A stretch of DNA of 64,000 bases from Bosea sp. Tri-49 (GTDB lineage Bacteria > Pseudomonadota > Alphaproteobacteria > Rhizobiales > Beijerinckiaceae), in contig NZ_CP017946.1 of the NCBI RefSeq assembly GCF_003952665.1, positions 4,028,501 through 4,092,500 of the forward strand, read 5' to 3'. Of the stretch, positions 6,020-31,213 are shown piece after piece. The translations under genes and the position numbers were made by a program. Position 1 is the stretch's first letter; each line of letters opens with the position of its first letter. A model generated the notes under the pieces. It was not told where the DNA came from. It saw nothing but the letters and a program-made list of their open reading frames with translations, and did not search any database.

Positions 6020-6745
6020 CTATTTCAGCGCGATTATCAGCATCAGGAAGGCGAGGACGATCAGGACCTGCTTCAGGCTCCAGTTGATCCGCCTGAGCTG
6101 CTCGGCGACCGGATCCTCCGGCGGCTCGGTCTCGGACGCCTGATCCGGTTGCCCGGAGAGGAAAGCAGGGCCGCCAGCGGCTTCGGTCGCGGCGGCCCGC
6201 CAGCTGATGTTCTGCACCCGGCCATGCGCCTGCGCCTTGCGGCCATCGGCCTCTGGCGCAAGATGGAAGACGGGTGGCTCCTCGTCCGGGCTGCCCTCGC
6301 GCAGCCAGAGATTGGTCGTCGCCGCAAAGGAGAGAGTGCCGGCGCGGCCTTCGGCGAGATCTTGTCGCAGGCCGGCGAACAGCGGTTGCGGCAGGAAGAG
6401 CTCGGCGGCGAGCCGGTCGTCGAGATCTCCCTGCGCCCCGGCGGAAAGGCTGAGCCGCAGCAGCGGTGCGCTCCCGCCGGGAAAGGAGCGGATCGTCAGC
6501 GACAATTCCTGCGCCGGCTCCGGCTGGCCGATCCGGGCGAGCCGCGCTCCATCCGGACGGACATGGCCTTCGATTCGCCCGGCATCGTGCAAGGCGCCGT
6601 CGCGCCAGTCATGTCCGGAGACCGCGACGAGCCCCTCCGCCGTGAAGGCGAGCGGCTTCTCGGCGTCCTGGACGAAAGCGCCGGCCACGCCCGGCAGCGT
6701 CATCCGCCCGTCCACGATGCTGGCGCCGTCCGTCCTGTCGTTCAT
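6020..6745 (-). CDS. Hypothetical protein with C-terminal membrane anchor
   Basis: A 241-residue protein with no signal peptide. It has a long beta-rich, acidic soluble part (about 1-215) ending in a single hydrophobic segment of about 17 residues (VLIVLAFLMLIIAL) at the extreme C-terminus. This topology suggests a tail-anchored protein with its bulk in the cytoplasm. No family is recognised. It converges on the small gene at 5802 with two bases between stops. Confidence 0.6.
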   Translation of the reverse strand: MNDRTDGASIVDGRMTLPGVAGAFVQDAEKPLAFTAEGLVAVSGHDWRDGALHDAGRIEGHVRPDGARLARIGQPEPAQELSLTIRSFPGGSAPLLRLSLSAGAQGDLDDRLAAELFLPQPLFAGLRQDLAEGRAGTLSFAATTNLWLREGSPDEEPPVFHLAPEADGRKAQAHGRVQNISWRAAATEAAGGPAFLSGQPDQASETEPPEDPVAEQLRRINWSLKQVLIVLAFLMLIIALK

Positions 6746-6921
6746 CCCGCCCCCGCCGTGAGTCGGTGCGGACGATAGCAGGTCGGCCCGGCGATGCCAG
6801 ATTGGCAGGTTGTTCTACGCCGAGGGTGGTACGGGCCGCGCCGGAAAAGAAAATTTCCTTCTCCGCCCGTTCGGCGAAAGGCTCTTCCTGATTGCTGCGT
6901 ACCTTTAAAAGAACGTTTGGA

Positions 6922-6950
6922 TTGACATGCAGAACGGCATTTCCTAGATT
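6922..6950 (+). promoter_or_regulatory. Sigma-70-type promoter of the methionine import locus
   Basis: A perfect -35 TTGACA (6922-6927) and a -10 TAGATT (6945-6950) are separated by 17 bases. The transcript would begin near 6957, just upstream of the SAM-II riboswitch, so the two fit as one regulatory unit. Confidence 0.75.
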
Positions 6951-6969
6951 GCAGTTGTCGTCGGTTCGC

Positions 6970-7027
6970 CGATGGCCGCGGAGATTTGAGCGAGCAGCTT
7001 GCGCCGCGTCACCAAACGCTAAAGCGC
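6970..7027 (+). promoter_or_regulatory. SAM-II riboswitch (S-adenosylmethionine sensor)
   Basis: The stretch shows hallmarks of the alphaproteobacterial SAM-II aptamer. P1 is CGCGG (6977-6981) with CCGCG (7004-7008). Its loop contains AGATTTGAGC and AGCTTGCG. Downstream are the conserved TCACCAAA and CGCTAAAGCG, where CGCT (7017-7020) can pair back with AGCG (6989-6992) in the loop to make the H-type pseudoknot. SAM-II elements turn off methionine synthesis or import genes when SAM is high, which fits metNIQ downstream. Recognised from memory of the consensus; not scored against a model. Confidence 0.8.
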
Positions 7028-7043
7028 CACGACGTGGTCGTGG
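7027..7043 (+). promoter_or_regulatory. Hairpin directly after the riboswitch
   Basis: CCACGAC (7027-7033) pairs perfectly with GTCGTGG (7037-7043) across a three-base loop. It sits between the aptamer and the ribosome site of the leader peptide. Without a T tract it is not a terminator, but it could be part of the expression platform. Confidence 0.5.
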
Positions 7044-7067
7044 GCTCCCCAGATCGAGGAGATGAAC

Positions 7068-7136
7068 ATGACCGGCTCCGTTCTCCGCCCTGTCGAACAG
7101 CTCGCTCGTTCGATGATGTGCTGTTGTCGCCGCTGA
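7068..7136 (+). CDS. Met/Cys-rich leader peptide (candidate attenuator uORF)
   Basis: A 22-codon frame with GAGGAG six bases before its ATG; an alternative ATG at 7062 is too close to that site. The peptide ends in two Met, three Cys and two Arg codons directly before the stop (MMCCCRR). Clustered codons for sulfur amino acids at the end of a short leader, between a SAM-II riboswitch and a methionine importer, suggest that ribosome stalling or charging of Met/Cys tRNA is read as a second signal. It has no sign of being a functional protein itself. Confidence 0.6.
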   Translation: MTGSVLRPVEQLARSMMCCCRR

Positions 7137-7190
7137 TCCAGCGCTGACGCCGTTCTCCGGCATCATTTCCGACATCACCGCAATACAGGG

Positions 7191-7205
7191 CGCCGCAACG
7201 CGGCG
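7191..7205 (+). promoter_or_regulatory. Hairpin before the first small ORF of the met locus
   Basis: CGCCGC and GCGGCG form a six-pair stem with a three-base loop, ending nine bases before the ATG at 7215. It could hide the ribosome site of that gene, which has no obvious Shine-Dalgarno, and so couple it to leader-peptide translation. Confidence 0.4.
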
Positions 7206-7214
7206 AAGATCATC

Positions 7215-7457
7215 ATGTCGTTCCAGTCTCACCTCAGCTCAAGTGCACCCGCTCGCCAGGCCTATGTCATCGAGGTCGGCGAGACCCAGGCCGGGCTCGT
7301 CGCCCGCGGCGCCGATGAGCGCTTTTACACCTTCATCTCCGCCTCGGCCGCCTTCGACCGGCTCGAAGGCCAGCGCTTCGCCACGCCAGTCGCGGCCGAA
7401 TTGGCGGCGCGCCAGCTTGTCCGCTCGCGGCGTCCCGGCCTGCGGCTGGCGGCCTGA
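7215..7457 (+). CDS. Small hypothetical protein of the metNIQ leader operon
   Basis: An 80-residue soluble protein with no signal or membrane segment, containing the segments AYVIEVGETQAGLVARG and RFYTFISASAAFDRLEGQRF, a compact alpha/beta pattern. No function is recognised. It is the first full-length gene behind the SAM-II element and leader peptide. The next frame starts 11 bases after its stop, so it is co-transcribed with the importer and probably sulfur-regulated. Confidence 0.6.
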   Translation: MSFQSHLSSSAPARQAYVIEVGETQAGLVARGADERFYTFISASAAFDRLEGQRFATPVAAELAARQLVRSRRPGLRLAA

Positions 7458-7468
7458 GGAGCGCGCCG

Positions 7469-7663
7469 GTGCAATTGTTCGAAGCCCTGCGCGCGCTGGT
7501 CGCGTCCTGGTTCGAGCGGGCGGTGCCTGCCGAAGCAGGCGAGCCGCGCTGGCAGGAGCGTTCTTTCGCCGAGCTCGGCGCCGAGGAGCGCCGCCGCTCG
7601 ATCCGCGAGGTCACGCTCGAGCAATTGGGCATTGCGCACTGGTCGTGCCACACGCATTTCTGA
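7469..7663 (+). CDS. Second small hypothetical protein of the metNIQ operon
   Basis: A 64-residue protein with a GTG start; GAGGA overlapping the previous stop gives a well-spaced ribosome site. It has an amphipathic helical N-terminus (MQLFEALRALVASWFERA), a charged middle, and a C-terminus containing Cys and three His or Trp residues (IAHWSCHTHF). No family is recognised. Tight packing between the upstream small gene and metN argues that it is real. Confidence 0.55.
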   Translation: MQLFEALRALVASWFERAVPAEAGEPRWQERSFAELGAEERRRSIREVTLEQLGIAHWSCHTHF

Positions 7664-7670
7664 GGACATG

Positions 7671-8780
7671 ATGAACGCCCCCGTGAAGCCCGGCGCCTTT
7701 CGCGTCGAGGACATCCTTCCAGCGCCGCCCGCCGATGCGATCATTCGCTTCGAGGGAGTCGGCAAGACCTTCGCCGGCCGTGACGGCCAGGAGCCCGTCA
7801 CTGCGCTCGCCGGCATCGACCTCGTCGTGCCGCGCGGTAGTATCGTCGGCGTGATCGGCCGTTCCGGCGCCGGCAAGTCGACGCTGATCCGCCTGGTCAA
7901 CGGGCTGGAGCGCGCCACCTCCGGCCGCATCCTGATCGAGGGTGAGGACGTCACCAATCTCACCGAGGCCGGCTGGCGCGAGCGCCGGCGCGCCACCGGC
8001 ATGATCTTCCAGCATTTCAACCTGCTGTCGTCGCGCACGGTGTTCGACAATGTCGCGCTGCCGCTGGAGATCGCCGGCGTGCCGCGGGCGAAGATCGAGG
8101 CGCAGGTCAGCCGCCTGCTCGATCTGGTCGGGCTCGCCGACAAGCGTGAGCGCTACCCGGCCGAGCTCTCCGGAGGCCAGAAGCAGCGCGTCGGCATCGC
8201 GCGTGCCTTGGCGACCGAGCCCAAGGTGCTGCTCTGCGACGAGGCGACCTCGGCGCTCGACCCCGAGACGACCCGCGCGATCCTCGCCCTGCTCAAACAG
8301 GTCAATCGCGAGCTCGGCATCACCATTCTGCTGATCACCCACGAGATTCCGGTGATCAAGGAAATCTGCGACCGCGTCGCGGTGATCGAGGGCGGTCACA
8401 TCGTCGAGGAGGGCGAGACCTTCGAGGTGATGACCCGGCCGCGGCATCCGACCACGGCGAGCTTTGTCGAGGCGGTGACCGGCGTCGAGGTGCCCGAGTA
8501 CCTCGACGGCCGCATCCATAAGCAGGCGCTGGCCGGCGACAGCGCGGTGCTGCGCATCGCCTTCACCGGCGAGAACGCGACGACGCCGGTGATCAGCCGC
8601 CTCAGCGCCGTGATCGGCGTCGACGTCAACATCCTCGCCGGCCGCATCGACGCGATCGGCGAAAAACCCTTCGGCAGCCTGCTGGTCTCGGTGCCGGCGA
8701 GCGAGCCCGAGCTTGCCGCCGTCTTCGGCGCGCTGAAATCCCTCGGTCTCAAGGCGGAGCTGGTCGGCCATGTCTCCTGA
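7671..8780 (+). CDS. metN: Methionine ABC importer, ATP-binding protein MetN
   Basis: The ATPase of the MetNIQ D/L-methionine importer. It has Walker A GRSGAGKS, signature LSGGQKQR, Walker B LLCDEATSALD and switch His in LITHEI. The C-terminal 90 or so residues form the NIL regulatory domain, in which cytoplasmic methionine inhibits transport. ATG 7671 or 7668 follows GAGGA; the frame is open further upstream, but only these fit. The 3' end overlaps metI by 11 bases. The alternative of a different amino acid importer is unlikely given NIL and MetQ. Confidence 0.93.
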   Translation: MNAPVKPGAFRVEDILPAPPADAIIRFEGVGKTFAGRDGQEPVTALAGIDLVVPRGSIVGVIGRSGAGKSTLIRLVNGLERATSGRILIEGEDVTNLTEAGWRERRRATGMIFQHFNLLSSRTVFDNVALPLEIAGVPRAKIEAQVSRLLDLVGLADKRERYPAELSGGQKQRVGIARALATEPKVLLCDEATSALDPETTRAILALLKQVNRELGITILLITHEIPVIKEICDRVAVIEGGHIVEEGETFEVMTRPRHPTTASFVEAVTGVEVPEYLDGRIHKQALAGDSAVLRIAFTGENATTPVISRLSAVIGVDVNILAGRIDAIGEKPFGSLLVSVPASEPELAAVFGALKSLGLKAELVGHVS

Positions 8781-9435
8781 ACTCATCCGTCTGATCATCG
8801 AGGCGACCGGCGACACGCTGCTGATGGTCGCGATCGCCGCTGGGCTGGGCACCGCGCTCGGCCTGCCGCTCGGCGTCTTCCTTGCCACCAGCAAGAAGGG
8901 CGAGCTCTTCGCCGCGCCTGCGGTGAATGCCGTGCTTGGCGCTCTGGTCAATGCGACGCGCTCGACGCCCTTCATCATCCTGGTCGTCGCGATCATCCCC
9001 TTCACCCGGCTGATCGCCGGTACCTCGATCGGCACCTTCGCCGCGACCGTGCCGCTGACGGTGGCCGCGACGCCCTTCATCGCGCGCCTGATCGAGGGCG
9101 CCATCCGCGAGGTCGACCAGGGCTTGGTCGAGGCGGCCCGCTCGATGGGCGCGACCCCGCTGCAGATCGTCCGCAAGGTGCTGGTGCCCGAGGCGCTGCC
9201 GGCGATCGTGCTCGGACTGACGCTGGCGCTGGTCAGTCTGCTCGGCTTCTCGGCCATGGTCGGCGCGGTCGGCGGCGGCGGACTCGGCGATCTCGGCATC
9301 CGCTATGGCTATCAGCGCTTCATGCCGGATGTGATGGCGATCGTCGTCGCCGTGCTGATCGTCCTCGTCCAGACCGTGCAGAGCGTCGGCGACCGCCTCT
9401 CGCGCCGCCTCAACAAGCGCCTGCGCCACGCCTGA
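8770..9435 (+). CDS. metI: Methionine ABC importer, permease MetI
   Basis: A 221-residue inner-membrane protein with about five hydrophobic segments and the EAA loop (LVEAARSMGATPLQIVRKVLVPEALP) that docks onto MetN. The length is normal for MetI. The start lies inside the metN 3' end, so translation is coupled. Together with metN and metQ it forms the complete importer. Confidence 0.93.
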   Translation: MSPELIRLIIEATGDTLLMVAIAAGLGTALGLPLGVFLATSKKGELFAAPAVNAVLGALVNATRSTPFIILVVAIIPFTRLIAGTSIGTFAATVPLTVAATPFIARLIEGAIREVDQGLVEAARSMGATPLQIVRKVLVPEALPAIVLGLTLALVSLLGFSAMVGAVGGGGLGDLGIRYGYQRFMPDVMAIVVAVLIVLVQTVQSVGDRLSRRLNKRLRHA

Positions 9436-9479: not shown

Positions 9480-10277
9480 ATGTCTGTTCTCTTCAGCCGT
9501 CGCCTCGCGCTCGGCTTTGCCGCCTCGCTCGTCCTCGTCGCCCCGGCGCTCGCCCAGCAGAACCAGGTCGTCCGCATCGGCGCCTCGCCCGGCCCGCATG
9601 CCGAGATCCTCGAGAAGGTGAAGCCGATCGCCGCCAAGAACGGGCTCGACCTCAAGATCATCGAGTTCTCCGACTATGTCGTGCCAAACCAGGCGCTGGC
9701 CGCCGGCGAGCTCGAGGCGAACTCCTTCCAGAACCAGCCCTATCTCGACAACCAGGTGAAGGATCGCGGCTTCAAGCTGGTCAGCGTCGGCCTGACCGTG
9801 AACTTCCCGCTCGGCATCTACTCGTCGAAGTACAAGAGCTGGACCGAGGTGCCTGATGGCGCCACCGTCGCGATCCAGAATGACCCGACCAATGGCGGCC
9901 GCTCGCTGCTGCTGCTGCAGGACAAGGGCGCGATCAAGCTCAAGGACGGCGTCGGCTTCAAGCCGACCGTCGCCGATATCGTCAGCAACCCGAAGAAGTT
10001 GAAGATCATCGAGATCGAGGCTGCCCAGACGCCGCGTTCGCTCGCCGACGTCGCCGCGGCTGCGATCAACACCAACTACGCCGTCGACGCCAAGATCGAG
10101 CCGACCTCGGCGATCCTGCGCGAAGATCCGAAGGGCCCCTATGTCAACCTGATCGCCGTGCGCGAGGCCGACAAGGACAAGCCCTGGGTCAAGGCGCTGC
10201 TCGCCTCCTATCACACCCCCGAGATCAAGGCCTTCGTCGCCGAGCGCTTCAAGGGCTCGGTCCTCGCCGGCTGGTAA
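9480..10277 (+). CDS. metQ: Methionine-binding protein MetQ
   Basis: A 265-residue NlpA/MetQ-family periplasmic binding protein. Its signal peptide ends APALAQ with no lipobox Cys, so it is a free periplasmic protein rather than the usual lipoprotein. Family signatures include ASPGPHAEILEKVKP, YVVPNQALAAGELEANSFQ and the NDPTNGGRSLLLLQ ligand-site region. AAGGAG precedes the ATG. It is the last gene of the riboswitch-controlled operon and is followed by a strong terminator. Confidence 0.92.
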   Translation: MSVLFSRRLALGFAASLVLVAPALAQQNQVVRIGASPGPHAEILEKVKPIAAKNGLDLKIIEFSDYVVPNQALAAGELEANSFQNQPYLDNQVKDRGFKLVSVGLTVNFPLGIYSSKYKSWTEVPDGATVAIQNDPTNGGRSLLLLQDKGAIKLKDGVGFKPTVADIVSNPKKLKIIEIEAAQTPRSLADVAAAAINTNYAVDAKIEPTSAILREDPKGPYVNLIAVREADKDKPWVKALLASYHTPEIKAFVAERFKGSVLAGW

Positions 10278-31044: not shown

Positions 31045-31136
<92 letters not shown>

Positions 31137-31213
31137 CTGGAACGCGGCTGCGCCACAAGTGCATCCGCAGACAGCGACTGGACCGTCAGACGCCCCGGAT
31201 CTCCTGAACCTGA

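Follow-up and report, generated by a model that had tools for sequence, protein, structure and literature searches.

A SAM-II-like aptamer in series with a cysteine-codon leader peptide ahead of metNIQ in Bosea: a candidate two-stage RNA regulator of sulfur genes

SAM-II riboswitches (RF00521), such as those of metA and metZ in S. meliloti, combine a conserved core, a stem P1, and a pseudoknot P2a in the 5' leader of sulfur genes (PMC9373788), all of which are shared by the element described here. In S. meliloti metA, the riboswitch SD serves AUG2, which shares the frame of AUG1 and lies 74 nt downstream, and the accessible text of that report describes no separate leader peptide for this riboswitch, the term occurring in its reference list only (PMC9373788). 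The SAM_alpha regulon of Alphaproteobacteria, which our locus resembles in its apparent SAM-II-type control of methionine genes, is described with metY, metA, metX, metW, metC, and hom named; metNIQ is not named under it and a leader peptide is absent from the accessible text (PMC4239095). Leaders with cysteine codons are known as well. In Rhodobacterales, uORFC-8-2 is a tandem-Cys upstream open reading frame (uORF) before cysS for which ribosome-mediated attenuation by Cys-tRNA has been proposed; it resembles the leader of our locus in being a short ORF with adjacent Cys codons (two in uORFC-8-2) but, according to the accessible part of that work, has no described aptamer in front, ends in an intrinsic terminator, and belongs to a different gene in a different order (PMC8632094). 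In Bacillota, T-box and SAM riboswitches are paired before ssuA, ssuB, and ssuC in a minority of the contiguous-riboswitch cases (for ssuA, T-box plus SAM makes up 8% of the listed contiguous pairs), and the accessible part of the source lists no such mixed pair for metN (PMC12452182). These pairs, which put tRNA charging and SAM in series before transporter genes, represent the nearest known logic, although tRNA charging is sensed there by a T-box RNA, whereas here the sensor would be the translating ribosome. The mgtA leader couples an RNA sensor to a leader peptide, MgtL, with the ribosome reading the peptide's codons. Mg2+ and Pro codons take these roles there, and our locus would share the architecture, but the RNA is unrelated. 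Tandem SAM aptamers, one of them SAM-II, likewise place two devices in series, the second device here being an ORF. Thus, SAM-II, Cys-codon uORFs, and riboswitch-plus-peptide leaders are each known. The tandem of a SAM-II element and a Cys leader appears to be new, as the first-pass annotation of this DNA had surmised: we found no description of it among the open-access papers that our searches listed.

The window analyzed here is a stretch of 64,000 nucleotides from Bosea sp. Tri-49, in which a promoter, a SAM-II-like aptamer, a P3 hairpin, an SD, a 22-codon ORF, ORF2, ORF3, and metN follow each other from 5' to 3' (Table 1). The first-pass annotation had placed promoter, aptamer, and leader peptide in series ahead of metNIQ. 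The observed arrangement is real and unusual and the series stands, but metN is not the next gene, since ORF2 and ORF3 intervene; a Pfam and NCBIfam profile search returned no match to either of them. ORF2-like proteins also occur 3' of the element at eight loci without a MetN match (L133, L175, L177, L179, L185, L187, L192, and L205). The window's metN scores 389.6 bits against TIGR02314, which is under the curated cut-off of 499.7 and yet the top match, and its closest named relatives, in a comparison that may omit records very near its own genome, are from Bosea (77 to 78% identity). The promoter is the sole promoter-like match in positions 6700 to 7700, where shuffled sequences average 0.1, and TTGAC lies at most 95 nt upstream of the element in 66 of 77 copies. 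The TTTAAAAGAACG block in front of it, which is common to many same-genus metN copies, may be a transcription factor site. At the same upstream place, AAAAGAAC is found in L172, L180, L209, L211, L212, and L215, and related TTCTTTTTAG...GAACG stretches occur upstream in other genera. Elsewhere in the window, a TPP riboswitch lies at 31051 to 31154 (70 bits, above cut-off).

Table 1. Features of the metNIQ leader and operon (window coordinates)
Feature	Position	Strand	Basis or remark
Conserved block TTTAAAAGAACG, just 5' of the -35 box, possible regulator site	6904..6915	+	Sequence comparison
Sigma-70-like promoter, TTGACA-17-TAGATT	6922..6950	+	10/12 consensus matches
SAM-II-like aptamer plus P3 hairpin	6976..7049	+	Rfam SAM_alpha match, model R1
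P1 5' strand CGCGG, pairs 7004-7008	6977..6981	+	Invariant in alignment
Pseudoknot P2a 5' strand GCG, pairs 7017-7019	7001..7003	+	Covariation of last pair
P1 3' strand CCGCG, pairs 6977-6981	7004..7008	+	Invariant in alignment
Pseudoknot P2a 3' strand CGC of CGCTAAAG	7017..7019	+	Covariation of last pair
P3 5' strand CCACGAC, pairs 7037-7043	7027..7033	+	3/7 pairs change on both sides
P3 3' strand GTCGTGG, pairs 7027-7033	7037..7043	+	Covariation
GCTCC, candidate anti-SD for 7056-7061	7044..7048	+	Sequence, putative
Leader SD GAGGAG	7056..7061	+	Sequence, relatives
Leader peptide ORF MTGSVLRPVEQLARSMMCCCRR, 22 codons, ends MMCCCRR	7068..7136	+	ORF translation, relatives
GATGAT, overlaps Met-Met codons, complementary to 7209-7214	7112..7117	+	Not in window's predicted ensemble
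Three Cys codons TGC TGT TGT	7119..7127	+	ORF translation
Hairpin CGCCGC-AAC-GCGGCG just 5' of ORF2 SD	7191..7205	+	Fold prediction
ATCATC between ORF2 SD and start	7209..7214	+	Complementary to 7112-7117
ORF2, 80 aa	7215..7457	+	ORF translation; no Pfam or NCBIfam match
ORF3, 64 aa, ends HWSCHTHF	7469..7663	+	No Pfam or NCBIfam match
metN (alternative ATG at 7668)	7671..8780	+	TIGR02314 best match, NIL domain
metI	8770..9435	+	NF008049 above cut-off
metQ	9480..10277	+	TIGR00363 above cut-off, PF03180

When the element was scored with Rfam, no family passed its gathering cut-off. SAM_alpha (RF00521) matched positions 6968 to 7042 of the forward strand with 28.9 bits against a gathering cut-off of 36 (E = 2.4e-4 for a 951-base query and 8.5e-5 for a 341-base query covering 6900 to 7240), and the SAM-II model RF01726 reached 17.2 bits (E = 2.4). 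Another Rfam family, such as sul1, was rejected: none was found at the element at E ≤ 10 in the region from 6750 to 7700, weak matches lying elsewhere or at chance level, and in 15 relatives no family other than SAM_alpha overlapped the element at E ≤ 1. The conserved core motifs GATTTG, CTTGC, and GCTAAAG agree with the Rfam SAM_alpha consensus. P1 and a P2 pairing of its loop with the 3' strand together form an H-type pseudoknot. The last P2a pair, with the register checked by motif, is GC in 54, AU in 12, and CG in 1 of 77 aligned copies and unpaired in the other 10 (GC 46, AU 9, CG 1, and other 12 among the 68 distinct rows). Standard pairs make up 97.0% of the paired cells in these 68 rows, versus 92.7% after shuffling, and 38 cells changed on both sides, versus 12.1 in shuffles, in an alignment that was fitted to P1 and P3 and hence favors both, P2a being outside the model. 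P1 never varies and so adds no covariation support, which is provided by the last P2a pair and P3. A further helix, P2b as GCG:CGC, was dropped, its 3' side being fixed while the loop side varies. Although the Rfam score itself fell short of what the assignment of a SAM-II riboswitch would call for, the conserved core, the covarying pseudoknot and P3, and the broad distribution described below outweigh it in our view and argue for an aptamer of SAM-II type, whose ligand would be SAM. At the cut-offs used, Rfam contains no family dedicated to this element.

The 341-base query matched 53 of the 61 genus genomes searched, the window's own included. Fifteen copies served to build a covariance model, R1, which gives the window, part of its training set, 107 bits. 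At E ≤ 0.001, R1 found the element in 86 of 397 genomes (26 of 141 genera) of the order, 63 of 199 genomes (20 of 43 genera) of the family, and 60 of 289 genomes (46 of 224 genera) of the class, these samples overlapping and including the window's genome. From a subset of the order and family matches, 56 loci were inspected, and 76 sources yielded the 77 aligned copies. A MetN-like gene was present 3' of the element in 45 of the 77 downstream stretches (tblastn E < 1e-50, counted from the table), including L173, which is 34.5% identical and maybe another ATPase, and L214, which represents two copies before one gene. In other contexts, judged by eye from translated ORFs rather than by family search, the neighbors resembled sulfonate-type binding proteins, monooxygenases, a flavin reductase, a rhodanese-like protein, and metY-like genes. 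The combination of aptamer and short Cys-ending frame recurs in many Alphaproteobacteria. The window's own genome (6.45 Mb) holds four more SAM-II-like copies, near 3404719, 3400904, 1751598, and 3733831; two of these were found via RF00521 only, with transporter-like genes next and without P3, and two via R1.

At canonical SAM_alpha loci, by contrast, the element mostly leads into a long gene: among the 30 best-scoring loci, one (L147) lacked a motif match and one more lacked a qualifying start, and 26 of the remaining 28 run into a frame of 395 to 405 aa, in a set that covers few genera and genes because the best-scoring loci were taken. The window departs from this in its sub-threshold element, in the extra conserved P3 with its putative anti-SD, and in the Cys-ending ORF before the gene. 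Many copies carry P3 plus GCTCC or a variant able to pair with the leader SD. Four relatives of the same genus (L114, L126, L129, and L130) are without the P3 segment and have a CGGAG SD right after GCTAAAG while keeping the Cys leader. Since this is the classic SAM-II layout, the leader start is what the aptamer adjoins, and the earlier claim that the first start codon after the aptamer is that of the leader peptide holds in both layouts. It is tempting to speculate about how the P3 layout works: lengthened by AGC:GCT, P3 would be in competition with the pseudoknot for its 3' strand, which offers a way in which SAM could free the anti-SD. Folding of 74 copies with a masked aptamer did not tell the two states apart; the mean unpaired probability of the leader SD was 0.33 in both, with 14 copies lower and 8 higher by more than 0.1.

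Leader peptides were called as the first ATG with an SD-like motif 8 to 110 nt past the aptamer. This rule gave an ORF in 74 of 77 copies (no qualifying ATG in L206, L132, and L127), 72 of them distinct after removal of two duplicate peptides. In the window, an in-frame ATG also exists at 7062, but in most relatives the leader begins at the position equivalent to 7068, a few nucleotides past the SD; the SD test of the ORF scan missed the leader because it took the ATG at 7062, which lies directly against the SD, as the start. Sixty-seven of the 72 distinct first ORFs are at most 60 aa long. Among these short leaders, 63 contain Cys, 49 contain at least two, and 62 have Cys within the last eight residues (an earlier and cruder rule, two Cys in the last nine residues, had flagged 24 of 56 loci and was later replaced). 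With the five ORFs longer than 60 aa excluded, Cys accounts for 10.4% of the in-frame leader residues, versus 6.0% in the +1 frame and 2.2% in the remaining frame, and for 24.6% of the last eight. Within the window, only 2 of 331 ATG ORFs of 10 to 60 aa have at least three Cys in their last eight residues, the leader included. At or near the end, each of the 22 distinct leaders of the genus has a run of two or three Cys codons or a Cys-Arg-Cys stretch and then an Arg codon, whereas their N-terminal half varies widely. Leaders from other genera include MIVVSGMDIEKPDGKMCCGCCCC, MMSHCCCP, MPKTVATLRKPFHPFEICRCRRNSR, and MTMTTFGNAFASCRSMPGRCCRRAA. Hence, the Cys codons that the first-pass annotation had noted are conserved across genera, and the leader combines a short ORF, an SD, and clustered same-residue codons near its end, as expected of a ribosome-mediated Cys leader. 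In 21 of the 22 genus leaders and in 36 of 41 other leaders with Cys (57 of 63 overall, in GC-rich genomes), the final Cys codon is TGT, earlier Cys codons of the genus leaders being TGC or TGT. Together with the raised Cys content of the +1 frame, this hints that the RNA is constrained as well as the residue; RNA pairing or decoding may underlie the TGT preference.

Class loci that were fetched later and are independent of the rule gave short ORFs in 14 of 18 cases, 8 of them with Cys in the last eight residues; L221 of this set had no motif match. A long first ORF follows the element in 5 of 72 cases in the main set and 4 of 18 in the class set, and the element may thus work also without a leader. 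In L225, L226, L231, and L232, the first qualifying start opens a long ORF, which by eye is binding-protein-like in L225 and L226 and metY-like in L232. Genus copies that we label sulfonate type have weaker Cys content (RCS, TRC, or none). L115, L117, L121, and L124, which lie in other gene contexts, share a Cys-poor conserved leader around RxLxRxSAFLxxTR.

The stretch from leader to ORF2 was read in 40 same-genus loci (L127, L131, and L132 being outside this list). Across the genus, the RNA separating the SD of ORF2 from its start codon shows complementarity to the Cys-codon stretch, and changes on one side are matched on the other: GGCUGC/GCAGCC in L100, CUCUGCU/GGCAGAG in L113, GGCUGCCU/AGGCAAGCC in L102, GCGG/CCGC in L134, and GAUGAU/AUCAUC in the window. 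When partners were permuted among 31 distinct pairs, native partners averaged -10.08 kcal/mol versus -8.43 for permuted ones, and none of 20,000 permutations was as low, in narrow pairing windows whose choice was post hoc, made after the folds had been seen; for these tests and the shift scan below, L129 and L130, whose leaders are longer, were moved by four codons to bring them into register. Thinning the relatives gave 7 (n = 20), 3 (n = 13), 114 (n = 9), and 384 (n = 7) of 20,000 permutations as low with the same window size, and 1 (n = 16), 69 (n = 9), 624 (n = 6), and 1,738 (n = 4) with another, so that with 4 to 7 representatives 1.9 to 8.7% of permutations were as low. Of nine window combinations in the control, Cys codons against ORF2 start reached a z of -5.2, six lay between -1.1 and 1.7, and two others also gave signals, at -2.6 and -3.8; a shift scan again placed the strongest z (-5.2) at this pair of segments and gave weaker signals, down to -3.7, elsewhere. 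A broader duplex test on 34 pairs, dominated by the GC-rich hairpin arm before ORF2, found 269 of 5,000 permutations as low.

When a ribosome was masked at the first Cys codon in the folding of 39 loci, the ORF2 start opened by more than 0.1 in 16 and closed by as much in none; when it was masked at the stop codon, the start opened to that extent in 7. However, in 15 of the 39 loci, namely the window, its nine close relatives L086 to L094, and L098, L114, L126, L130, and L134, the predicted free ensemble gives the helix between Cys codons and ORF2 start a density of 0.00, and leader regions fold no better than their shuffles. In the fold predicted for the window, the partner of the Cys codons is RNA closer by. 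The pairing mechanism is therefore fairly supported for the genus but weakly supported for the window's own sequence.

From the conserved element, the covarying pseudoknot and hairpin, the Cys-ending leader, and the matched changes within the genus, we infer a two-stage RNA regulator that probably, in our estimate, acts as a gate for low SAM AND low Cys-tRNA. In the first stage, aptamer, P3, and anti-SD would govern ribosome start on the leader, with SAM blocking leader translation. In the second, scarce Cys-tRNA would stall the ribosome at the Cys codons near the leader end, where it would cover RNA otherwise paired with the ORF2 start region, so that ORF2 would be translated and metNIQ too, by coupling. 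If Cys were plentiful, or if leader translation were shut by SAM, the sequestering pairing would form and the operon would be off; it would be on only if SAM and charged Cys-tRNA were both low. The identity of the ligand as SAM, the direction of the switch, the stalling, and control at translation rather than by Rho are the conjectural steps of this scheme. The AND gate is the best-supported reading of the locus, and the interpretation given in the first-pass annotation, which had the operon sensing SAM through RNA and charged Met- or Cys-tRNA through translation, is as a whole partly supported.

Alternatively, the same parts could serve Rho-dependent transcription attenuation, in which an untranslated or fully terminated leader would expose a rut site that a stalled ribosome hides. 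A scan of positions 6950 to 7671, between promoter and metN, found no intrinsic terminator, and 78 nt separate the leader stop from the ORF2 start, both in line with such a scheme; the matched changes of Cys codons and ORF2 start, however, point to the start site as the target, and we regard Rho control as unlikely. It is still less probable that the leader serves as a spacer, translated under SAM-II control and sensing no amino acid, in which Cys codons are kept only for pairing with the ORF2 start. The complementarity within the genus and the nearly invariant TGT of the last Cys codon would fit this, but other genera keep Cys in very different RNA (MCCGCCCC, SHCCCP, MCRRCRNSG, and TCCCRT), and outside the genus it is kept without detectable pairing to the next start: 3,183 of 20,000 permutations were as low (n = 23) in a test in which L006, L201, L200, L007, L015, L218, and L219 received no start under the rule and others had no identified next gene. 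We likewise give little credence to the idea that the aptamer is a SAM-II relative with a changed ligand, such as SAH or another sulfur metabolite. In its favor, RF00521 scores stay below gathering, at 23 to 30 bits, in the window and 7 of 15 relatives, the other 8 having no match at E ≤ 1, loop L3 departs from the SAM_alpha consensus, and the element precedes sulfur-source genes as well as met genes; against it stands the core, which matches that consensus in all three motifs. Least probable is joint sensing of Met and Cys, as first proposed from the window's MMCCC, of which the Cys part holds but the Met part is weakly supported: Met is mildly raised in leaders (3.9% of internal residues and 5.1% of the last eight, versus 0.9% in other frames) and precedes the first C-terminal Cys by at most three residues in 23 of 62, but its position is not fixed, adjacent Met pairs occur in 4 of 67 distinct short leaders, and the ATG codons of the window's clade are complementary to the ORF2 start region, which gives another reason for their presence.

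For the most part, riboswitches and attenuators based on leader peptides are known as devices of their own, whereas under the two-stage AND gate the riboswitch appears to decide whether the leader attenuator can act. If so, a single mRNA leader integrates SAM, the end product of sulfur metabolism, with Cys, its entry amino acid, and the arrangement offers a test system for logic in natural RNA regulators. Whether this extends to an Alphaproteobacteria-wide class of sulfur-starvation RNAs, in which SAM-II licenses a Cys leader whose Cys codons are themselves the anti-start strand of an AND gate, is in our judgment an evenly balanced question. Such a regulator may account for part of the control of metNIQ and sulfur-source genes in Alphaproteobacteria.
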